Shown: positions 27,163-37,085 of the stretch, piece by piece
How the letters are laid out: every line of letters starts with the position of its first letter
How positions within the stretch are numbered: the stretch's first letter is position 1
Assembly (NCBI GenBank): GCA_028293125.1
Contig: JAQGPJ010000024.1
Coordinates: forward strand, 1 to 57,470
Origin: Verrucomicrobiales bacterium
Lineage (GTDB): Bacteria > Verrucomicrobiota > Verrucomicrobiia > Verrucomicrobiales > V1-33
Direction: 5' to 3'
DNA: 57,470 nucleotides
Made by a program: the position numbers and the translations under genes
The notes under the pieces: model-generated
Database searches by the model: none
Seen by the model: the letters and a program-made list of their open reading frames with translations, nothing else
Told to the model about the DNA's origin: nothing

Positions 27163-29208
27163 TCAGCGCCGCCGGATGACCTGAACCAGCCAGCACTGCT
27201 CCTCAGGGATTCCGGGCAGGGCATGAAATTCGCTGATGGAAACAATCCGACCGCCGACCGCTGGTGGTGGTGGAGCGCGGTTCACAATCGTAGCAACAGG
27301 GACATTCAGCGGACCCCCTTTCCCGCCACTGTCGGCGGCGGCGGTGAGGGCGGCGGTGTCCGGGAGCATGCGGAGCAGGACATCGTGCCTGAATTCCACC
27401 CCTGTCACGGGCTTTTGAGTTTCGCCGGGCTGACTTGTATCCACCGGGTTCAAGGGTGAGCGAGGACTGGTTGCCGGGCCCCCTGCGGCACCATCCGGCA
27501 GGATCGTCAGCGAAGGCCCGCAGAAGCGGAAGTCAAAGCTCAGGGGTCGCAGCCATCCGCGTTGCGTCCATTCAACGGAAGTGGGAAAACAGTGTTCCAT
27601 CCGGGCTTTGATGAAGGCTTTTCCGGTCTCCTCCGTCCCCAGCATAGCCCACTCCATGGAATGCGCGGTGCCGGCCTCCAAAGCGTCGGCCAGCAAAACC
27701 TCCACTTTGCTGAAGTCGCCGCGCACCTGCCGCAGAGCGGCGGCATCCTCAGCTGTCAGGGTAAATACTTCATATTCCGTCCGAGGGGGCGGCGTCGGCT
27801 CCATGCCCGGTGCGGGGCTTCCTGTCACTTTTAAAAAGGTGATCTCCATTTCAGCTCCGGAACTGTCAAGTCCGGTCATCTCCTCCGGCAGCGTGGCGGC
27901 CCCCAGGCAGACCACGCTTCCGGGGGCGATCCTCACCGTGCCCTCGAAGGCGGTTTCCACAAACTGAGGGCGGGTTACAAAGGATCTGCTGATTCCGTCA
28001 GGCTCAGGCCACAACTTGTTTTCCACCAGGGAATTCTCCTGAAGCCGGATTTCCACCACAGCGGTTCCGGATTTTGATGCCTCCAGGACAGTCGCGGTGA
28101 ACGAGCGGCCAAGGTTTCGGTATTCAAAGGATTGAGGGGTAAAATCAAGATCTGACTCCGTGGCATAAGCATACTCCTCAATCGATTCAGCCTGACTGCC
28201 CAGAGGGACGGTTCTTTCCTCCCCGGTGCCGGAGGCGGGGTGCTGGTCAAACGGATTCCGCTCGCCTGCTGGCTCGCGTGTGGTCAGACGCTGACCGGCA
28301 TTTATCCGCAGAATGGCGTGATTGTGCATACGCGTATTCCCGTCTGCAGTGGACGATGCCAGCAGTGAGGCGAGCAGCCCGGCATCGTTCCGGTTCTGCG
28401 GATTGTCCAACAGCGCCCGGCCCTCGTCCCGAGGAAGGCGGAAAGTGAGTGCATGGAGCCGCCAGTCCGACGGAAGGCCGGCCACTGGCTTTTCCGTGGA
28501 GGGGACAGAGGCGTTCGCGAAAACAAAACAATGAGCCTCCTCCGGGGAGTGCAGGGTCTCCGCCGCGCGGAACATGGAAACCAGGTGATGAGCCGTGTCC
28601 CCCGAGCGCCAGGCGGTGGTGGTTTTCTCTGTAAAAAAGCGCGGGCTCAGCAGCACGCCATCCACCGGGGAATCCGGCAGGCTGACCGGCACGCGTCGCT
28701 GCTGGTCCCCCCGGATATTTTCCAATATCAGCCGCCCAGCCGTTCCCGTGGATGGACCTGAAGTCCCTGACCGGTCGCCGGCGTAAAGCTCAGCCACCAG
28801 GCTGGTGCCGACTAACCTGAATTCGACGCTGGCCGGAAGCATCTCCGTGCCCCGGCGCTCGTATTCGGTGGGATAGGGAAACTCCTTCATGGCCTCCATC
28901 CGCAGCTCCCGGCCGTGCGGGGTGGAGAAATGCTGATCCGCCGCCAGTTCCGCCTGCCCATTGGCAGCCATGGCGGCCAATCGGAGAAAAAGGGCCTCAT
29001 CCTGCGGAGCCGGCTGTTCCAGCAACGACATCGGAATCTCCCGGCCCTTCACTTTGAAAATGGTGGTCCGCACCCGGATCTCCGCAGTGTCCCCGGAGTT
29101 TCCAAAGGGAGGAATCAGCCAGCCTTTCTGTCCCACGCCGGATTCAGCCGGGGACCACCGTGCCAGCGATAAAAAGCAAAACAAGATCAAAGGGATTTTC
29201 ATGATCAT
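27163..29208 (-). CDS. Secreted protein with three secretin-like degenerate modules, coupled to an ECF sigma gene
   Basis: 681 residues from the ATG at 29208, whose ATGA overlaps the stop of the sigma factor gene; a second ATG is 6 nt later. A signal peptide (IPLILFCFLSLARWSPAES) is followed by three divergent copies of one module. Each core reads G-R/Q-x-A, then an acidic segment with YPTEYE or similar, then P-x-S-V-E-F-R-x-x-G-x-S-L. The cores lie at about 98-145, 338-380 and 523-572. The pattern recalls the C-terminal part of secretin-like proteins of this phylum (SGQRATIE, YPTE, FETRNVGVTLEVEP). No membrane-spanning barrel is apparent. Function is unknown; coupling with the sigma factor suggests it is its periplasmic partner or target. 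Confidence 0.75.
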   Translation of the reverse strand: MIMKIPLILFCFLSLARWSPAESGVGQKGWLIPPFGNSGDTAEIRVRTTIFKVKGREIPMSLLEQPAPQDEALFLRLAAMAANGQAELAADQHFSTPHGRELRMEAMKEFPYPTEYERRGTEMLPASVEFRLVGTSLVAELYAGDRSGTSGPSTGTAGRLILENIRGDQQRRVPVSLPDSPVDGVLLSPRFFTEKTTTAWRSGDTAHHLVSMFRAAETLHSPEEAHCFVFANASVPSTEKPVAGLPSDWRLHALTFRLPRDEGRALLDNPQNRNDAGLLASLLASSTADGNTRMHNHAILRINAGQRLTTREPAGERNPFDQHPASGTGEERTVPLGSQAESIEEYAYATESDLDFTPQSFEYRNLGRSFTATVLEASKSGTAVVEIRLQENSLVENKLWPEPDGISRSFVTRPQFVETAFEGTVRIAPGSVVCLGAATLPEEMTGLDSSGAEMEITFLKVTGSPAPGMEPTPPPRTEYEVFTLTAEDAAALRQVRGDFSKVEVLLADALEAGTAHSMEWAMLGTEETGKAFIKARMEHCFPTSVEWTQRGWLRPLSFDFRFCGPSLTILPDGAAGGPATSPRSPLNPVDTSQPGETQKPVTGVEFRHDVLLRMLPDTAALTAAADSGGKGGPLNVPVATIVNRAPPPPAVGGRIVSISEFHALPGIPEEQCWLVQVIRRR

Positions 29209-30707
29209 TGGGGGATGGTGACGGTGGCAAAAAGAAGCACGACGCGGGGTTCCGGCTCTGTCCCGGGCAGGGTGCCGGCATCCAGATATTGGGACATCAG
29301 CAGCCGGGGTTCGCCCGCCCGGATATTCCCCAGACAGCCCTCCGCGCGCAGGGTGTGGAAGGTGTCCGCCTCCATCACCCGCTCCGGATGACGCTCCGCC
29401 TCGATCATTGACAGCGGCCATTTCAAGACCGAAGGCGCGGCGTAGTGGTGGTATATCCGCCAGACCAGCTGAATGGAGTCGGAGGATTGGATTGAGGGCT
29501 CCACCTGCAACTCAGTGCCCACATCCTTCGTCGCCGTTCCAATGTGACTGCGCTGGCCGGTTTCGCGGTCCCAGGCCCAGCTTTCCGCATAATCGTGACC
29601 GTGAATTTCCCTGACACGCCCGGCTTCGCCCGCGAAAGTGTCCAGCTCAAATTCCTGCAATCCGCCCTGAGCCTCCGCCAAAGGGCGGAATTCGGCAAAA
29701 AGCGCCGCATCCCCACTTTCCGGCTGAAAGGTGAGCAGCCGGGCTGCGGCTGTTTTAGCCGGAAGATTGAGGATAGTGCAGACTACGTGAACATTTGGCC
29801 GGGCTCCCGGCGGGTGGCCCGGTCCTCCGCTGTCCACGACGGATACCATCGGCGCACGGCCTCCGGCATCCGAAAACCAGCCGTATTTTATGGCCCACCA
29901 CCAGCAGCCGGCAGCCGTGATCAGGGCGGCGGCGGCGGGGACAACATACGCACGGCTTCGTGAAACCCGCGCGGCCCTGATGGGACCGGAGGCTATCGCC
30001 TGCCGCCAAGCGGCTCCGGGAAGGGTGGCCATGACGCCGGAGGGGACCCCGCCCGGAGCTGCGGAGGCGTGGTGGAGCAAAATCTGTGACAGCAGGGCGG
30101 CCGTGAGCAGGACACCCCGGCGGCGCAGGGCATGGCGCAGTTTTTCCAAGCCGCGGGTGATGCGTTTGCGGGCGGCCTCGCCACTGATACCGAGCGCGCT
30201 GCCGATGACAGGGTGATCCTCGCCACTGAAAAAGCGCATCAGAATGGCCTCACGCTCGGTCTTTGGAAGGCTGTCCAAAGCGGCATCCAGGAGCGGCGCC
30301 GCCTCCAGCCATGCGGTTTGGAGAAAGGGATCGGAATGATCAGTCATGGCTTCGTCCTGCTGAATTTGGGCGGCGTGCCGCTCACGGCTCCGGCGGCGGA
30401 CCTCTGTGCGCACCACTTTCCGGGCCGTGAAACAGGTGTGGCGGTGGAGCCAGCCCACGGCGGCGGTGTCCGGGGGCAGTTGCGGCGCTTTCCGGGCGAA
30501 ATCGGCGAAAACCATCTGCGCCACATCCTCCGCCAAGGCGGCATCCCCGTTCACCAGCCTCCGCGCGGTGGCCCACACCATCGGCAGATGCCTCACCACC
30601 AACTGGCGGAAGGTGTCTCCACAGGGAGCCGACTGGTAACGCCGTAGCAGGGTGGTTTCCCCGCCGTTGGCCGGAGCATGGGAAGGAGCGATGGAAAAAG
30701 TGGACAT
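29205..30707 (-). CDS. ECF-type sigma factor fused to a membrane segment and extracytoplasmic secretin-like domain
   Basis: 500 residues against about 190 for a plain ECF sigma factor. Sigma region 2 (about 22-100) includes NGDAALAEDVAQMVFADFARKA; region 4 (about 136-195) has LPKTEREAILMRFFSGEDHPVIGSALGISGEAARKRITRGLEKLR. After RRG comes a hydrophobic stretch (199-215), and a transmembrane helix at 254-272 (YVVPAAAALITAAGCWWWAI) puts the C-terminus outside. That part (about 305-500) has AGEAGRVREIHGHDY and VGTELQVEPSI, resembling the C-terminal module of secretins and of the next gene. It may act as its own membrane anchor and sensor. It is divergent from the gene at 30882 and carries a promoter motif shared with the other sigma gene. 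Confidence 0.85.
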   Translation of the reverse strand: MSTFSIAPSHAPANGGETTLLRRYQSAPCGDTFRQLVVRHLPMVWATARRLVNGDAALAEDVAQMVFADFARKAPQLPPDTAAVGWLHRHTCFTARKVVRTEVRRRSRERHAAQIQQDEAMTDHSDPFLQTAWLEAAPLLDAALDSLPKTEREAILMRFFSGEDHPVIGSALGISGEAARKRITRGLEKLRHALRRRGVLLTAALLSQILLHHASAAPGGVPSGVMATLPGAAWRQAIASGPIRAARVSRSRAYVVPAAAALITAAGCWWWAIKYGWFSDAGGRAPMVSVVDSGGPGHPPGARPNVHVVCTILNLPAKTAAARLLTFQPESGDAALFAEFRPLAEAQGGLQEFELDTFAGEAGRVREIHGHDYAESWAWDRETGQRSHIGTATKDVGTELQVEPSIQSSDSIQLVWRIYHHYAAPSVLKWPLSMIEAERHPERVMEADTFHTLRAEGCLGNIRAGEPRLLMSQYLDAGTLPGTEPEPRVVLLFATVTIPQ

Positions 30708-30752
30708 AGGATGAGGTGAATCTTTGCCTTAAGAACCCGCCGGCCGCATCAC

Positions 30753-30762
30753 TCGGACAGAA
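30753..30762 (-). promoter_or_regulatory. TTCTGTCCGA motif before the first sigma gene
   Basis: On the minus strand TTCTGTCCGA lies 46 nt before the start codon of the sigma factor gene. Nearly the same motif (TTCTGTCGGA) lies about 39 nt before the other sigma gene in this window. A shared autoregulatory promoter is the simplest explanation, but only two copies are visible. Confidence 0.4.
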
Positions 30763-30881
30763 TTTCACCAAAACTTTCCGCCTCCCCCTGATCCGGGATT
30801 TCCGCCCCCTGTTCATCAAACCGGCGGCGGACGGGATTTTTCTTCTCGCAGCCCGCCGGTAGGCGGTCCAAGTTTGCCTAT

Positions 30882-31700
30882 ATGAAGTTCCTCCCTCCTC
30901 CCGGTCCGCGCCGCCCTCTGGCATCCCTGCTGCTCCTTTCAGCCCTGCTGGGCGGGACGACGCCGCTCCTGCGCGCAGACAGCGTGGAGCGGGTGCCGGC
31001 CACGGCGGAGGATCTGGCGTCGGCTCTGGGCATGGACATGAAGAAGTTCACGGCCAAATTCGCGGATCCGGTTTACGCCACCATGACCCTGAGCTGGCGG
31101 CAGCCGGGGGATGAGCTGGTGAACCAGCTGAAGCACAGCAGTCCGGAGCCGGCGCAGGAATTCACCATGCTCTTCACCCGCCGGGATTATGGCCGGATGC
31201 AGATGAGCACCGGCGGCGACAATGCCAAAAAGATGAAGGACATCGTGGAGATGAACGTGAAGTTCGCCGGGACCGGCTTCTATTACCGGGACTTCAATCC
31301 CTTCGCCAAACTCAAAGGCCGGCAGCCCATCCAGTCCTTTGTGAAGGATCAGAGCTTTGAGGCTCTGCCTCTGGACGAACCCATTCCGCTGGTGATTGAA
31401 GCGGCGGCGGAGGCCCCGGACAAGCTGATGACCGTCATCCAGACCCAGTATGCGGTTTCCCCGGCATTCGTGCATTTAAGCGTCACCTTCTCACGGGAAA
31501 AACCAGAGCCTCTCCCGCAAGCCGATCCCAAGGCCATTCCTCTGCCCTCCCCTGTTCCGACTTCTCCAATCACTCCGGACGGCCCCCCCGCCCCCGCCCC
31601 CGCGCCGGCTCCGTCCAAAGCCGTGGATGCTCCCGCGGCGCCCGGCAACGTCAAGCCGGCCTCCCCGCCCGCCTCTCCGTCTCCCGCCGCCAGACCATGA
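30882..31700 (+). CDS. Secreted protein of unknown function with proline-rich tail
   Basis: 272 residues. An N-terminal signal (about residues 11-32, LASLLLLSALLGGTTPLLRA) leads into a globular part of about 170 residues that I do not recognise, with motifs such as MTLSWRQPGDELVNQL and YYRDFNPFAKLKGRQP. The last 60-70 residues are almost entirely Pro, Ala and Ser. The stop overlaps the trmB start as ATGA, so the two are probably cotranslated, although no functional link to tRNA modification is evident. It is divergent from the first sigma factor gene, with a 174-nt shared promoter region, so it may belong to that regulon. Confidence 0.8.
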   Translation: MKFLPPPGPRRPLASLLLLSALLGGTTPLLRADSVERVPATAEDLASALGMDMKKFTAKFADPVYATMTLSWRQPGDELVNQLKHSSPEPAQEFTMLFTRRDYGRMQMSTGGDNAKKMKDIVEMNVKFAGTGFYYRDFNPFAKLKGRQPIQSFVKDQSFEALPLDEPIPLVIEAAAEAPDKLMTVIQTQYAVSPAFVHLSVTFSREKPEPLPQADPKAIPLPSPVPTSPITPDGPPAPAPAPAPSKAVDAPAAPGNVKPASPPASPSPAARP

Positions 31701-32317
31701 CCCGCCCCACTCCGGAAACGGTGGAGCTGGTGCCCGCGGATTACTTCCGCGCGCTGCGGCGGGAGGAGATTTTTTCAAACTTTGAACGGCGGTTGGAGCT
31801 GGATGTCGGCTGCGGCGACGGCACCTTCCTGATGGAGATGGCGGCCCGGTTTCCCGAACGCAATTTCCTGGGCATAGAGCGCCTGGGGGGACGCGTCCGG
31901 AAAATCTCCCGGCGCGCCGCCCGGCTGGGGCTGGCCAATGCCCGGGTGCTGGGGCTGGAAAGCTCTTATGCGCTCGGCTGGCTGCTGCCGGAGGGCTGCG
32001 CCACGCGGCTGCACCTGCTTTTCCCCGATCCGTGGCCGAAAAAGAGGCATGCGCGACACCGTTTTGTGCATGGGGAGAACCTTGCCACCCTGCACCGGGT
32101 TCTGGCGTCGGACGGGGAGTTTCTGTTCAAAACAGACCACCCGGACTACTTCGACGAGGCCACCGCCGCCGTGGATGAATCCCCGCTCTTCTCCCGCCTG
32201 CCATGGCTGGATTCCGGGGAATTTTATGCCGTCACCGACTTCGAGCGCCAATGGATGGAGGAGGGCAAACGGATCCAAGGGGCCCGCTGGGTGAAGCGGC
32301 CCGGCTCCGCCACTTGA
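31697..32317 (+). CDS. trmB: tRNA (guanine-N7-)-methyltransferase
   Basis: 206 residues, normal for TrmB, which makes 7-methylguanosine at position 46 of tRNA from S-adenosylmethionine. The SAM-binding motif LDVGCGDGTF is at 35-44 with the ribose-binding Glu61 (GIER). The diagnostic LFPDPWPKKRHARHR lies at 108-122, and TDHPDYF follows near 146. The start codon overlaps the previous stop (ATGA). No truncation or oddity is seen. Confidence 0.96.
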   Translation: MTRPTPETVELVPADYFRALRREEIFSNFERRLELDVGCGDGTFLMEMAARFPERNFLGIERLGGRVRKISRRAARLGLANARVLGLESSYALGWLLPEGCATRLHLLFPDPWPKKRHARHRFVHGENLATLHRVLASDGEFLFKTDHPDYFDEATAAVDESPLFSRLPWLDSGEFYAVTDFERQWMEEGKRIQGARWVKRPGSAT

Positions 32318-32395
32318 TTTATTCATTAAAATTTCCAAATCCCTCTGCCGCGGACGTCCCACGTCCCCGCTCAATCGTTTTTCATAACCACCACC

Positions 32396-33583
32396 ATGCC
32401 AGACATTGCTTGCTCCTCCTTCCCGCCCGTTAACGCCTCGAAGCGCATTTTCCCTCCCTTCAGCCTGGAGCGCCTGCTGCGGACGGTTTTCGAGCCCACG
32501 GAGGGCCGGAAGGTGTGCGTGCTGATCGACCTGCCGGATCTTTCGCTGATGAAGGACTTGGCGTTTCTCAGCGATCCGCAGTTCGCCATCCAGCGCCGGG
32601 CCCATGAGCACTTTTATCTAGCGCTGAAAAACGGCGTCATGGACGCCCTCGGCCTGCAGGGAGGCGAAATCTACGCCTATGCCATGACCTATGGCAGCAA
32701 TCTGGATCTGGAGGACGAATGCCGCGACGCCGCCGGCAACATCCTCAGCCTGGAGACGGATATTTACCCGGACTACGACCTCATCCTCTGCATCTCCACC
32801 TTCAGCGCCACGGCCCCGCTGACGGCCATGGCGAAGAAATACAACTTCCGGGGCGCCACCCTGCACGGGGTGAACGAGGTGATCCTCAGCACCGGCTTGG
32901 CAGTTGATTACCAGGAGGTCAGCCGCGATGCGGAGAAGTTGCGTTTGGCCGTGACCCGCGCGGATGAAATCGAGATCGACTTCGAGCTCGAAACCGGCGA
33001 AATCCTGACCGCGCAGCTTTTCCTCGCAGGACAGGAGGCGCAGAAGAGTCACGGTCTTTGCCGCGGCACAGCCCCGGACATCGCCAATCTCCCTGCCGGA
33101 GAGGTGTATTTTGTCCCCGCCGGAGCCGAAGGCAGCTTCCCCATGAAATATGAGGATGGAACCCTGGGCCGGCTGACAGTCACCGGCGGACGCATCGTTA
33201 AGTCCGACCTCATAGAGGGAAATCCCGAAACTATCGCCGCCCACAACACCAAGCTGACCGCCGATCCCATGACCGGCGTGCTGGGGGAGCTGGGATTCGG
33301 CACTCAAGTGCTGCCGGTCTCCGGAGCGGATATTCAGGATGAGAAGGTCCTCGGCACCTGTCATATGGCCACGGGACGCGATGACCATCTGGGGGGCCAT
33401 CTCACGCCCGATCTGTTCAAGGAGAAGCGCAACGCCACGCATGACGACATCCTTTTCGCTCCCCACAAGACGCCGAACTTCAATATCCGGCAGGTCCGTA
33501 TGAGGCGCGGGGAGCAGCGTGAGGTTCTGATCGAGAATTTCCAGCCCGCCGCCTATCTGCGGAACGCCTTGGCGGCGGAGTAG
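32396..33583 (+). CDS. M29-like metalloaminopeptidase family protein
   Basis: 395 residues, no signal peptide. The C-terminal half carries the metal-site motifs of the thermophilic aminopeptidase (M29) family: GELGFGT, then DEKVLGTCHMATGRDDHLGG, then ATHDDI, which supply the Glu, Glu, His, His and Asp ligands of a two-metal centre. The N-terminal half (DLSLMKDLAFLSDPQ, LCISTFSATAPLTAMAKK) is more divergent. Members remove N-terminal residues from peptides, but the family also includes proteins of unproven activity, so I call it family level only. It follows trmB by 78 nt on the same strand. Confidence 0.72.
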   Translation: MPDIACSSFPPVNASKRIFPPFSLERLLRTVFEPTEGRKVCVLIDLPDLSLMKDLAFLSDPQFAIQRRAHEHFYLALKNGVMDALGLQGGEIYAYAMTYGSNLDLEDECRDAAGNILSLETDIYPDYDLILCISTFSATAPLTAMAKKYNFRGATLHGVNEVILSTGLAVDYQEVSRDAEKLRLAVTRADEIEIDFELETGEILTAQLFLAGQEAQKSHGLCRGTAPDIANLPAGEVYFVPAGAEGSFPMKYEDGTLGRLTVTGGRIVKSDLIEGNPETIAAHNTKLTADPMTGVLGELGFGTQVLPVSGADIQDEKVLGTCHMATGRDDHLGGHLTPDLFKEKRNATHDDILFAPHKTPNFNIRQVRMRRGEQREVLIENFQPAAYLRNALAAE

Positions 33584-34011
33584 TGTCCCCCTCCGGTGTG
33601 AAAGCCGGTTGGCAAGCCGTCGGACATCTGAGCGCCTTGGAGAATTGGCTGCCTGATGCCGGCTCGCGGGGCCGCACAGGCACCTGCGGCCCTGCACCTG
33701 CGCCATAATGCTGCCCAGACCGGCGGATGAAAACCTATTCACCAGGATTTCAGGCTGGCCTTTGGTTTGCTTATGGCGTTGAAACGGAACCAGATGGGCC
33801 GGCTGGCCGGCGTGACAGGCATCTTGCCACTTGGCCAGGCTTGGTCCATATTGGTTGGTCATTACAAGTTTCCAATGCCGCAGAAATCCCACATCAGTTC
33901 CGGACTGTGCCCCGGGTCTTCTCCCGGATGCGGGACCACTGCTGTGCATCCGTTCGGTTGACTGACGGCGTTAACCACCACCAATGATGGATACCTGCCC
34001 TATTTTCTGAA
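33584..34011. other. Intergenic stretch, no gene seen
   Basis: 428 nt with no convincing frame. An imperfect dyad (GGTTGAC at 33956-33962 and GTTAACC at 33970-33976) lies 36-56 nt before the chorismatase start and could be an operator. No terminator after the aminopeptidase stands out. Confidence 0.5.
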
Positions 34012-34995
34012 ATGTCCCTGTTTCCTGAGGCTTGCCCCCCTGAATCCACTCTCTCCACGGCTTTGAACCCCGCAGTCATTCCCGGCGGAAGACAGGAACT
34101 TCAGGTGCGCACCGGGGCTGAAAAGCCGGCCATTCACTCCGGCGAAGGCACAGTCACTCTTGATCTTCCCATGCCCCGCCTTGCCGGACCGGAGACGGAG
34201 TGGGTGGGCCGTGGAATTTCCGCCAGTGGGGAGAACCCGGAATTTCATCTGATCAGACAGTCCGGCGGCTGTTATGGCCTCGCGCTGGGGCATCCAGGAG
34301 AGCCGCCTCAGGCCGCCGCGCACCGGCTTTACGCCGCCCTACTGCGGGAAATTCCGGGTCACCACCTGCATCGGGTCTGGAACTGGATTCCGCGCATCAA
34401 TGACTCCAACGGGGAGGGCGAGGAGAACTACCGCGCCTTCAATGCCGGACGCCATGCCGCTTTCACTGAGCACTTCGGCCCCGACGCGCTGCGCCCCCAT
34501 CTGCCGGCGGCCTCAGCGCTGGGCATTGAGGGGGATCGCATGGCCATCCTGTTCGCCGCCGGATTCACCGCGCCGGATAACTTTGAAAATCCGGAACAGG
34601 TGCCTGCCTGCGAGTATCCCGCGCAGTATGGCCGCCGACCTCCGGCCTTTGCCCGCGGCACCAGTGTCACCACTCCGGAGGGGGGACGCGAGTGGTTCCT
34701 ATCCGGCACGGCCAGCATCAAGGGCCACCGGACGCTGGGGGGCAACTTCGATGACCAGATGCGTCTGACCTTGGACAATGTCCGCCTCATGCGCGCCCAC
34801 ATGGGCGTTCCGGACCATGCCTCCGCCCGCTGGAAGGTGTTTCTCCGCCACGCTGACGACCTCGCCGCCTGTCAAAAAGCCTTCACGGACGCTTGGCCGC
34901 AGGACACCGCCACCACGCTCTATTTACGGGCCGATATCTGCCGGGCCTGCCTTCTGGTGGAGGTCGAGGGCACTTTCTCCATTCCTCCAGGCTGA
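34012..34995 (+). CDS. Chorismatase of the FkbO/Hyg5/XanB2 family
   Basis: 327 residues, the usual length. Family enzymes convert chorismate to pyruvate plus a dihydroxycyclohexadienoate or 3-/4-hydroxybenzoate. Visible signatures are RVWNWIPRIN (121-130), ENYRAFNAGRHAAF (138-151), the FLSGTASIKGH block (229-239) that marks the ligand pocket, and YLRADICRACLLVEVEG (304-320) at the C-terminus. Which subtype it is (FkbO, Hyg5 or XanB2-like) depends on a few pocket residues I cannot assign by eye. No aryl-polyene, quinone or polyketide gene is adjacent, so the product's use is unknown. The gene converges on the small helix-turn-helix-like gene. Confidence 0.85.
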   Translation: MSLFPEACPPESTLSTALNPAVIPGGRQELQVRTGAEKPAIHSGEGTVTLDLPMPRLAGPETEWVGRGISASGENPEFHLIRQSGGCYGLALGHPGEPPQAAAHRLYAALLREIPGHHLHRVWNWIPRINDSNGEGEENYRAFNAGRHAAFTEHFGPDALRPHLPAASALGIEGDRMAILFAAGFTAPDNFENPEQVPACEYPAQYGRRPPAFARGTSVTTPEGGREWFLSGTASIKGHRTLGGNFDDQMRLTLDNVRLMRAHMGVPDHASARWKVFLRHADDLAACQKAFTDAWPQDTATTLYLRADICRACLLVEVEGTFSIPPG

Positions 34996-35051
34996 ACCCG
35001 CCTGTCCTGTCCGTCCGGTCTCCACGGGAAGCCGGAATCCCGGCAATCCCG

Positions 35052-35372
35052 TCAGCGTCCGATGTAATTGAATGCCCCGCTGTGCCCGACTGAAGGCAGA
35101 TCACGGGTTTTGCGGGCTCCATTGAGGGCGGCAAGCACCTTTTTCTGCGCCCGCGCGGTCAACTGACGGCCCTTGCGAGCCTTCTGCACCACCTTGTGGG
35201 TGAGACCGGTCCCGACCGCTACGGCTACCAGCGCGTGGTTGTCCATGCCATCCGCCTCCAGCAGCGCGTCCAACGGCTGCAAGCCCATATCCATCTCCAT
35301 CTTTTGGAGTTCGGAATCAGGACGGGCTGCGGATTCATCACCGGATGTTATGGATGGGCCAACGGAACTCAT
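35052..35372 (-). CDS. Small helix-turn-helix-like protein
   Basis: 106 residues. After a variable acidic N-terminus, the segment LVAVAVGTGLTHKVVQKARKGRQLTARAQKKVLAALN (about 48-84) has the length and pattern of a Cro/C1-type helix-turn-helix followed by a third helix, with a strongly basic recognition region. It is probably a DNA-binding protein, though no named family is recognised. The gene is convergent with the chorismatase (56 nt between stops) and divergent from the second sigma factor gene, with 192 nt between starts. Confidence 0.65.
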   Translation of the reverse strand: MSSVGPSITSGDESAARPDSELQKMEMDMGLQPLDALLEADGMDNHALVAVAVGTGLTHKVVQKARKGRQLTARAQKKVLAALNGARKTRDLPSVGHSGAFNYIGR

Positions 35373-35514
35373 CAGGAAAAGTGGTTATAAAAATGAAAAA
35401 TAAACGGCGGAAACCGGCAGTGTCCTCCGTCTTGGAGAAGAAGTCAACCCGTCCAGCGTGAGGCCTGGCCGGCATGTGGCTCCATCCCCTCCCTCCCTGC
35501 GTTCCTCTCTAAAC

Positions 35515-35526
35515 TTTTCTGTCGGA
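35515..35526 (+). promoter_or_regulatory. TTTTCTGTCGGA motif before the second sigma gene
   Basis: The motif is preceded by AAAC and followed by ACA, so the -35-like GGAAC of many ECF promoters is also present at 35524-35528. It ends 38 nt before the start codon. Its counterpart before the other sigma gene reads TTCTGTCCGA. Confidence 0.4.
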
Positions 35527-35564
35527 ACAGCATCCTCCGCGCCGACTACTTGGAAAGATAAAGT

Positions 35565-37085
35565 ATGATCTCTCCCGAACGGTCCCAGGAACTGCTGCGC
35601 GCCTACACGGCCACCCGTTGCGCAACCGCGTTCGGGGAACTCGTGGCGGGTTGGACCGGGATGGTCCACGCCACCACCCTGCGGGTCGCGCGTGGCCAGG
35701 AGGCACTGGCGGAGGATGTCACGCAGACCGTTTTCTCACGGCTCGCCGCCACGCCCGAAAAGGTGAGGGACGCCTGGGCGCTTGGCTCCTGGCTGCACGC
35801 CGCGGCCACCGGCCTCACACTGGATGCCCTGCGTGCTGAGGCCCGACGGCGGCGGCGGGAGGAGGAAACTTCCCGGCAGCTAATGACACACACACCGGAA
35901 CCTCCAACGCCGGGTGCCGGGGAGGGCGGGCACCCACTCATTACGGAAATCGATAGTGCGCTCACCGGACTTCCACCGCAGGATAGCCAGCTGCTCATCA
36001 TGCGCTTCTGGCAGCGGCAGGACTGGCGCAGCATCGGACGGGCTTTCGGACTGAGTGACGACGCTGCGCAGAAGCGCATGGGCCGCGCGCTGGAGCGTCT
36101 GCGGCGCATTCTGGCCCGGCGCGGCATCACCAGCACTGCCGGGATGCTCTCGGCCGTGCTGGCGGGCACCGTCCCCCATGACCTGTCCGCCGCCGTCGTG
36201 CTGAAAATCATCACTGCCTCCCAAGCCTCCCTTTCCTCCGTCCTAACCACCGCCCTCATGACCACTAAAACAAAAGCCGCCATCGCCGCCATCGTGATCG
36301 CCGCCACCGCCTCTATTGTTTACCAGCAACAGCGGATCACCTCCCAGCAGGAGGAGATACAGTCCTTGAGGAAAAGCGCGCCTGTTACTGCGTTTAAAAG
36401 GGCTCCTGTCCCTGTTCTTGTGGAAGAAAGGACTTCCGCCGGTGCCGTTGCTGTTAAACCCAGGGACCTGCCCGCCACCCCGGAACCGGAAAGCTCCCGC
36501 CCCTCCGGCCCGGAAGTGAATAAAGGCCTCAGGGATTTTGACGCTATGAACCGCGGAAAATTGAAGGAGAAGCTCGCTGTTCTGCGGACACGTCTGTCGC
36601 TCACACCGGAGCAGGAGGCGGAAACCGCCAAAGCGCTCGAATACGGGCAGTCCAAAATCAAAATCTCCCCACCCAATGTCATCGTCTCCAAAGCCACCGC
36701 GGAGGATATCCGGAAAATGGAGGAGGCCATCAGCGACACTCTCAATCCCGGCCAGCGGGCGGAATACGAGTCCTTCCGTGCGGAGGAAAAGGCCAATACC
36801 CTGGAGGCGGCCGCAAACCGCGAGCTCTCGAATCTGCAGTCGATGATGAATCTCTCGCAGGAGCAGAAGGATCAGGTTTTTACCATCTTCTCGGAAATCG
36901 CTGAAAAGGAGTCCACGCTGCCCGTGCTGGAACCCGGCGGGGAGAGGGAGGCCAAAGCCATCGAAGCGGCCGTCAATGCCCGCTGGGCTGACCGCCGGGA
37001 AGCTCTCAGCGCCATTCTGACACCGGAGCAGATGGCTGTCTATAATCAGGCAGGAAGCCCCTACAAACGCGGAGCCGGCGGCTGA
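35565..37085 (+). CDS. ECF-type sigma factor fused to a membrane segment and Spy/CpxP-like LTxxQ domain
   Basis: 506 residues. Sigma region 2 (about 10-90) includes GQEALAEDVTQTVFSRLAA; region 4 (about 130-185) has LPPQDSQLLIMRFWQRQDWRSIGRAFGLSDDAAQKRMGRALERLR. A hydrophobic linker (RRGITSTAGMLSAVLAG) and a transmembrane helix at 237-253 follow. Outside the membrane are a short coiled coil (QQEEIQSLRK), a proline-rich linker, then a helical domain with four LTxxQ-type motifs: LTPEQ (346), LNPGQ (393), LSQEQ (430) and LTPEQ (485). Such motifs define Spy/CpxP/ZraP/CnrX-type envelope-stress or metal sensors. The arrangement suggests a sigma factor that is its own transmembrane sensor. No separate anti-sigma gene is nearby. 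Confidence 0.87.
   Translation: MISPERSQELLRAYTATRCATAFGELVAGWTGMVHATTLRVARGQEALAEDVTQTVFSRLAATPEKVRDAWALGSWLHAAATGLTLDALRAEARRRRREEETSRQLMTHTPEPPTPGAGEGGHPLITEIDSALTGLPPQDSQLLIMRFWQRQDWRSIGRAFGLSDDAAQKRMGRALERLRRILARRGITSTAGMLSAVLAGTVPHDLSAAVVLKIITASQASLSSVLTTALMTTKTKAAIAAIVIAATASIVYQQQRITSQQEEIQSLRKSAPVTAFKRAPVPVLVEERTSAGAVAVKPRDLPATPEPESSRPSGPEVNKGLRDFDAMNRGKLKEKLAVLRTRLSLTPEQEAETAKALEYGQSKIKISPPNVIVSKATAEDIRKMEEAISDTLNPGQRAEYESFRAEEKANTLEAAANRELSNLQSMMNLSQEQKDQVFTIFSEIAEKESTLPVLEPGGEREAKAIEAAVNARWADRREALSAILTPEQMAVYNQAGSPYKRGAGG

Follow-up and report, generated by a model that had tools for sequence, protein, structure and literature searches.

The window analysed here is a stretch of 57,470 nucleotides (nt) on contig JAQGPJ010000024.1 of a Verrucomicrobiales bacterium (assembly GCA_028293125.1). 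It encodes two sigma factors of the extracytoplasmic function (ECF) type, sigma 1 (29205..30707, minus strand; 500 amino acids (aa)) and sigma 2 (35565..37085, plus strand; 506 aa), each fused to a long C-terminal part, and both genes are preceded by the element TTCTGTC(C/G)GA. This element is very probably the -35 half of an ECF-type promoter whose -10 half lies about 17 nt further on, and which drives the fused sigma gene and is read by the same sigma. The differing bases vary with the residues through which the gene's own sigma reads DNA, and each fused sigma therefore most likely recognises its own variant of the promoter. What was computed is a near-fixed spacing of the two parts, their position before genes of this class in many Verrucomicrobiota, and a co-variation of the -35 bases with the recognition helix. 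We hold the promoter reading with high confidence, and autoregulation by the fused sigmas appears strongly supported by the co-variation and by two held-out sets. The original prediction, which had drawn attention to the two window sites, is real and larger than first described: the two sites belong to two of 14 paralogous genes and represent the -35 half of a promoter that is probably read by the gene's own product. Its second half (30742-30730, minus strand) and the 12 further paralogs had been missed.

Both window proteins consist of the sigma2 and sigma4 domains, followed by approximately 300 further residues. As expected of ECF (group IV) sigma factors, they match Pfam Sigma70_r2 and Sigma70_r4 and score above the cut-off of TIGR02937; a sigma3 domain was not found by Pfam in either protein. 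The genome carries 50 matches to Sigma70_r4_2, among which the class profile A1 separates 14 full-length fused members at 232-261 bits from the next protein at no more than 111 bits, the profile having been built from these same 14 members. Sigma 1, which is assigned by its domains, by the class alignment A1 and by hydropathy, reveals a hydrophobic helix after sigma4, near residue 255, with a hydropathy of 1.63 (cut-off 1.6). In sigma 2, assigned by its domains and by C-terminal similarity to relatives, no 19-residue window reaches this cut-off. Among class relatives (proteins of at least 300 aa), 69 of 75 show a hydropathy of at least 1.6 after sigma4. That membrane-anchored sigma genes share a class of promoter is borne out by the paralogs, by other Verrucomicrobiota and by this hydrophobic majority; sigma 2 itself is presumably anchored.

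The sole exact copies of TTCTGTC(C/G)GA in the window are TTCTGTCCGA at 30762-30753 (minus strand) and TTCTGTCGGA at 35517-35526 (plus strand), two copies vs 0.16 expected. The minus site had been placed correctly, while the start given for the plus site (35515) included two bases too many. The similar distances to the starts are confirmed, with 45 nt between the -35 site and the ATG of sigma 1 (at 30707) and 38 nt for sigma 2 (ATG at 35565). Runs of the type AAA(C/G)TTTT do lie near both sites, but their registers differ: AAAGTTTT at 30777-30770 (minus strand) lies 7 nt upstream of the sigma 1 site, and AAACTTTT at 35511-35518 (plus strand) overlaps the sigma 2 site, forming an A/T-rich stretch that enters the -35 half. 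A second A/T tract, AAATT at 30765-30761 (minus strand), extends into the sigma 1 site; the whole A/T-rich stretch upstream of this -35 half is GGAAAGTTTTGGTGAAATT (30761..30779, minus strand), and an A/T-rich flank also appears in the de novo motif. For sigma 1, the -10 half is CGGCGGGTTCTTA (30730..30742, minus strand), and the spacer exceeds the commonest length by one base. For sigma 2, the -10 half, compared by eye with the consensus, is the degenerate CGCGCCGACTA (35538..35548, plus strand), in which CTA is retained.

Across the genome paralogs, a TGTC- or TGTT-type box anchored by eye lies 36-63 nt upstream of the start codon in 13 of 14. De novo motif search in the 110 nt upstream of the 14 genes returned GGAAATTTTTTGTC (log-likelihood (LL) 81.0 vs at most 55.4 in 12 shuffled sets), and 18 non-redundant relatives of the same family returned AAAATTTTTGTCCG (LL 96.6 vs at most 52.0 in eight shuffled sets). 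The core is fixed across the anchored sites and the flanks are variable. A second box, anchored on TGTC, is GC-rich and ends in TAT or TTA, with a modal offset of +17 in 14 of 33 (LL 65.5 vs at most 46.5 in ten shuffled sets). Model R1, built from the elements of the 18 relatives only, finds four matches at E<=10 in the 6.48 Mb genome, three of them before fused sigmas, and its first rank is the sigma 1 site (30731-30765, minus strand). The fourth match (C38) and the non-training matches of an own-trained model (C19, C92, C88, C22, C31) were considered as extra targets; they mostly lie inside long open reading frames (ORFs), show no convincing gene start downstream and were taken as chance. 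When 14-mer matrices were exchanged between the two sets, the relatives' matrix reached at least 8 bits in 9 of the 14 own genes vs 7 of 34 other region-4 genes (p=4e-4), and the own matrix did so in 9 of 18 relatives. The other region-4 genes concerned are L031, L035, L041, L051, L056, L062 and L063; upstream of L035, L051, L056 and L063 we observed A/T-rich words with TGTCA-, CGTCA- or TTTCG-like boxes at their end, and a wider ECF promoter theme in this genome is possible.

The element is found in its clearest form in other Verrucomicrobiota. A wider set was obtained by a search with five closer members, from which the best 80 of 212 loci were retained; all titles that name a taxon name Verrucomicrobiota. 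With no start codon assumed, 78 upstream stretches of these relatives gave the motif TTTGTcCGATTTtcccgtCGGCGGGTGcTA (26.8 bits), with the consensus TTTGTcCGATTT-N6-CGGCGGGTGcTA, and 68 of the 78 score at least 12 bits for it. The full bipartite element reaches at least 8 bits in 73 of the 80 loci (five without a candidate). Spacing was compared in 100 promoter-sigma pairs and is identical in 81 and one base longer in 14. A conserved TGAA stands at a fixed distance beyond the -10 half in these pairs, with no strongly conserved base between TGYTA and TGAA. If the G of TGT is set at -35, the last A of TGAA would fall at about +1, and since the start codon follows closely after TGAA, the leaders would be very short. 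In this register, transcription is predicted to start at 30722..30723 (minus strand) for sigma 1, 35 nt from the G of TGT, and at 35556..35558 (plus strand) for sigma 2.

Consensus sites with up to two mismatches were then counted in the 38 genomes reached through 41 of the wider-set loci. There are 55 sites vs 4 for the reversed control, 35 of which belong to the query loci themselves. Of the 55 sites, 48 precede a class sigma gene, and of the 20 that remain without the query loci, 13 do so at a distance of at most 180 nt. Among the other non-query sites, two precede sigma genes broken soon after their start (L316, L297), at L303 the sigma gene lies about 250 nt beyond the site, and those at L305, L312 and L313 look like chance. 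The site at L314 precedes a 213-aa gene directly upstream of the sigma gene; its product appeared TonB-like by eye, no Pfam family was found in it, and the identity is not claimed. In a pool of 68 distinct sites, query loci included, all 41 with no or one mismatch precede a class sigma. A consensus as strict as this would miss weaker targets.

These counts bear on the possibility of an ordinary sigma70 (housekeeping) promoter, composed of a -35 box TTGTCG or TTTGTG and an extended -10 box TGnTA(TAAT). Many sites indeed read GTGCTATAAG or similar, like an extended -10, and the spacing is near 17-18. However, a single class of genes lies downstream at the proportions just given, the conservation extends over GATTT and GGCGGG, which would be superfluous for a sigma70 promoter, no strongly conserved base follows TGYTA until TGAA, and the -35 bases track the recognition helix encoded by the very gene downstream. 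A housekeeping promoter would consist of TTGACA and TATAAT and stand before all kinds of genes; here the conserved letters differ. We regard this explanation as improbable.

The bases of the promoter were compared with the columns of the sigma proteins by mutual information over the 100 promoter-sigma pairs (effective number 61; residue numbering of sigma 1). The highest values link -35 base 5 to residues 181 and 177, and bases 6 and 8 to residue 180. These three residues are all located in the sigma4 recognition helix; for the -10 bases, the best partners are residues 90 and 97, in sigma2. Q-K at 180 and 181 goes with TGTCGG in 33 of 35 cases, R-K with TGTCCG in 20 of 20, and R-M with TGTGCG (33 of 38) or TGTTCG (5 of 38). 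In 49 disjoint nearest-sequence pairs the changes coincide (p=1e-5 for residue 181 and base 5, p=2e-6 for residue 180 and base 6). From an alignment to another SigE, residues 180 and 181 appear to correspond to R171/S172 of Escherichia coli SigE and K170/T171 of Bacillus subtilis SigW, which contact -35 bases (PMC6713349); the step to the E. coli numbering depends on how the helix is read.

Two held-out sets agree with this code. In the first, a code trained on other loci only was applied to 34 sites from the own genome, the same family and the same order, 27 of which have a residue pair seen in training. It agrees in 25 of the 27 (19 with the commonest base pair), vs a shuffled mean of 13.1 (p<=5e-6). 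Both window genes belong to this set. Sigma 1 reads E177-A-A-R180-K181 in the recognition helix (codons 30165..30179, minus strand), and its -35 half at 30753..30762 contains TGTCCGA; sigma 2 reads D166-A-A-Q169-K170 at the equivalent positions of the class alignment (codons 36060..36074, plus strand), and its -35 half at 35517..35526 contains TGTCGGA. Since both genes obey the code, the C/G difference between the two window sites is as the code predicts, RK with CC and QK with CG. The further set comprises 81 members from at most 27 of 40 genomes; in 54 the bipartite element exceeds the 99th percentile of shuffles, and all 45 of these with a known residue pair agree, 37 with the commonest base pair (shuffled mean 28.5, p<=5e-5). 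The letters of the code are the pairs QK, RK, RM, KK, KM and QR. Some letters are provisional, as they were read off the same rows: K180 goes with C at base 7 in 15 of 15 vs 1 of 45 otherwise (among the 60 of 81 rows in which the best match has TGT), TGTCTG accompanies Q-R in L399, as it does in L048 and L057, and Q-K turns to CC where residue 177 is E or G.

The same co-variation argues against an operator for one separate DNA-binding regulator common to all fused sigma genes. This was the original proposal, and words shared before paralogous genes are in line with it. A common regulator would be expected to read a single word, yet the variants track each gene's own sigma4 residues; moreover, the spacing is that of ECF -35 and -10 boxes, a start-like TGAA follows at a fixed distance, and inspection of the -35 half reveals no dyad symmetry. 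We consider it highly unlikely, and not the best reading of the differing bases.

Several observations weigh against a promoter that a fused sigma reads before its own gene. A bipartite promoter with ECF spacing is present before the sigmas' own genes, but the -10 half of sigma 2 is weak (4.9 bits, in a slightly shifted register, in the anchored second-box search), and paralog L039 has no clear box upstream. Only 14 of 43 rows from the own genome, the same family and the same order carry the full bipartite element at 8 bits or more (eight without a candidate), so that the own family is less canonical than the wider set. The strict consensus occurs three times in 145 genomes of the phylum vs 12 times for the reversed control, and not at all in the window's genome; the canonical form is limited to part of the phylum, and the window versions are divergent. 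The cross-scan outcome is modest and insufficient alone, and the E-values of model R1 are weak (1.4-2.2), from a scan that scored 150 of 1100 first-look candidates. In the further held-out set, 27 of the 81 members lack a bipartite match over the threshold. Upstream of four class relatives in a different family of the order (L121-L124), the box is another one, GCAAGTT or GCAAGCT, with CGGACACTT 18 nt on, counted from start to start; this is perhaps another version of the promoter.

Others concern the code. When all columns are compared in the pair test for -35 bases 5 and 6 jointly, residue 42 of sigma2 ranks first and residue 180 second. The contrast between sigma domains has p=0.0014 by column permutation, yet 9 of 199 circular shifts reach the same value. 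A tree built without the helix columns provides just five independent pairs per trait on supported branches, of which 4.6 and 5.0 on average change the same way and none the opposite way (p 0.0625). Boxes were chosen by score or by eye, which biases them to common letters. L033 and L049 of the own family combine RK with C at base 7 and break the base-7 rule, and L073 and L120, with RK and CA at bases 5-6, are exceptions to the code.

Finally, counting the exact 10-mer genome-wide, the check proposed at the outset, turned out against enrichment: 20 copies occur in the 6.48 Mb, where its reversed control occurs 23 times, and the outcome is the same for a longer 14-mer when one mismatch is allowed (44 vs 110). 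Only the two window copies have a sigma gene downstream, and 16 of the remaining 18 lie inside ORFs of at least 180 codons. The raw words are not enriched, and the count test is therefore uninformative unless limited to the sigma class; the signal of the 10-mer is positional and class-specific. These counts, together with the 2 of 100 dinucleotide-shuffled windows that also carry at least two copies and the paralogy of the two genes, which means that their upstream regions need not be unrelated as had been assumed, would suit a chance likeness or a functionless residual homology after gene duplication, but de novo recovery in separate sets, the match of the relatives-trained model, the variable flanks about a fixed core and the co-variation with the sigma domain leave this explanation almost no credit, and for the class as a whole it is hard to hold.

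Under the promoter read by its own sigma, the following mechanism may be proposed. The membrane would retain the sigma part until the extracytoplasmic part senses a signal that frees it, as in fused ECFs activated by proteolysis. The freed sigma would raise its own transcription; the transcript would begin about 35 nt beyond the G of TGT and carry a very short leader. Paralogs with different codes would be insulated from each other, while those sharing a code could cross-activate. More speculatively, and with considerable doubt, the fused sigmas might be self-contained, self-amplifying switches: the own gene would be the only promoter that such a sigma clearly controls, the extracytoplasmic part would be effector as much as sensor and made in quantity once the sigma is freed, and a three-residue code would let at least ten switches coexist with little cross-talk.

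The C-terminal extensions of the class are diverse and comprise TonB_C domains, LTPEQ-like sequences, helical repeats or parts of unknown type. The TonB C-terminal domain PF03544 occurs in 15 of 49 scanned members of the 75 (L195 and 14 others; best E 2.2e-20), a sample in which Opitutaceae-type loci are over-represented. Where a membrane helix links the sigma to TonB_C, the protein might directly read TonB-dependent receptors. Pfam scans of 49 relatives and both window proteins matched neither a SnoaL-like nor a zinc-finger anti-sigma domain. Residues ~315-496 of sigma 2 are helical with LTPEQ-like repeats and share ~25-29% identity with the relatives L113, L102, L119 and L106; by eye, we take this part to be reminiscent of LTxxQ periplasmic proteins. 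The single-sequence structure of sigma 2 was poor (mean pLDDT 51.7), and its fold search was empty at E<=0.001. Broken or truncated copies of fused sigmas in the same genome (G000:C88:171766-172337, G000:C31:73838-74227, G000:C64:388-672) suggest turnover of the family. At its end, the sigma 1 gene overlaps a 752-codon ORF without Pfam match (27163-29421, minus strand), and the two may be transcribed together.

Among known systems, ECF41 resembles the class in its TGTC-type -35, a spacer of about 16 nt, the C-terminally extended ECF and the promoter at the own or a neighbouring gene. Its promoter, TGTCACA-n16-CGTC, stands before the own or the neighbouring gene (PMC3426412), and its C-terminal extension is SnoaL-like (PMC8999054). 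The -35 of the class described here is mostly TGT(C/G)(C/G)G followed by (A/G)TTT, with the -10 half CGGCGGGTGYTA, and the extension usually begins with a membrane helix and has no SnoaL domain that we could find. The window sites read TGTCCGA and TGTCGGA instead of TGTCACA, which occurs in three of the 34 anchored sites (L026, L073, L129), with CGTCACA in one (L120). IutY, ECF48, ECF52 (SCO4117) and ECF53 are membrane-fused ECFs activated by proteolysis (PMC8999054) and likewise join the ECF domain to a transmembrane helix and a C-terminal extension within one polypeptide, with no separate anti-sigma. A transmembrane helix after the ECF part is indicated here for the 69 of 75 relatives and sigma 1, with sigma 2 below the cut-off; the class differs in that no zinc-finger anti-sigma domain was found and in its 14 paralogs in the window's genome. 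As for sigma4 recognition in general, the same two helix positions specify -35 bases in SigE and SigW (PMC6713349); the code reported here comes from natural variation within one fused class, concerns promoters before the own genes and has its own letters. Prediction of ECF promoters from contact residues has been described (PMC8103513, citing Todor 2020), and autoregulation is common among ECFs, at ~55% according to a prediction tool (PMC8103513).

Autoregulated ECFs, sigma4 -35 codes, TGTC-type -35 boxes and membrane-fused ECFs are known in principle. This promoter and its code letters appear new: they were not found in the literature searched, the main ECF classification lying outside that search, and the fused class may already be a numbered ECF group. 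Genomes of many poorly studied phyla carry dozens of sigma factors of unknown target. For one paralogous class of the Verrucomicrobiota, the promoter, its likely reader and the residue-to-base code can be read straight from the sequence, and insulation between paralogs becomes testable. The findings suggest an unusual regulatory design, in which the main target of the sigma would be its own gene.

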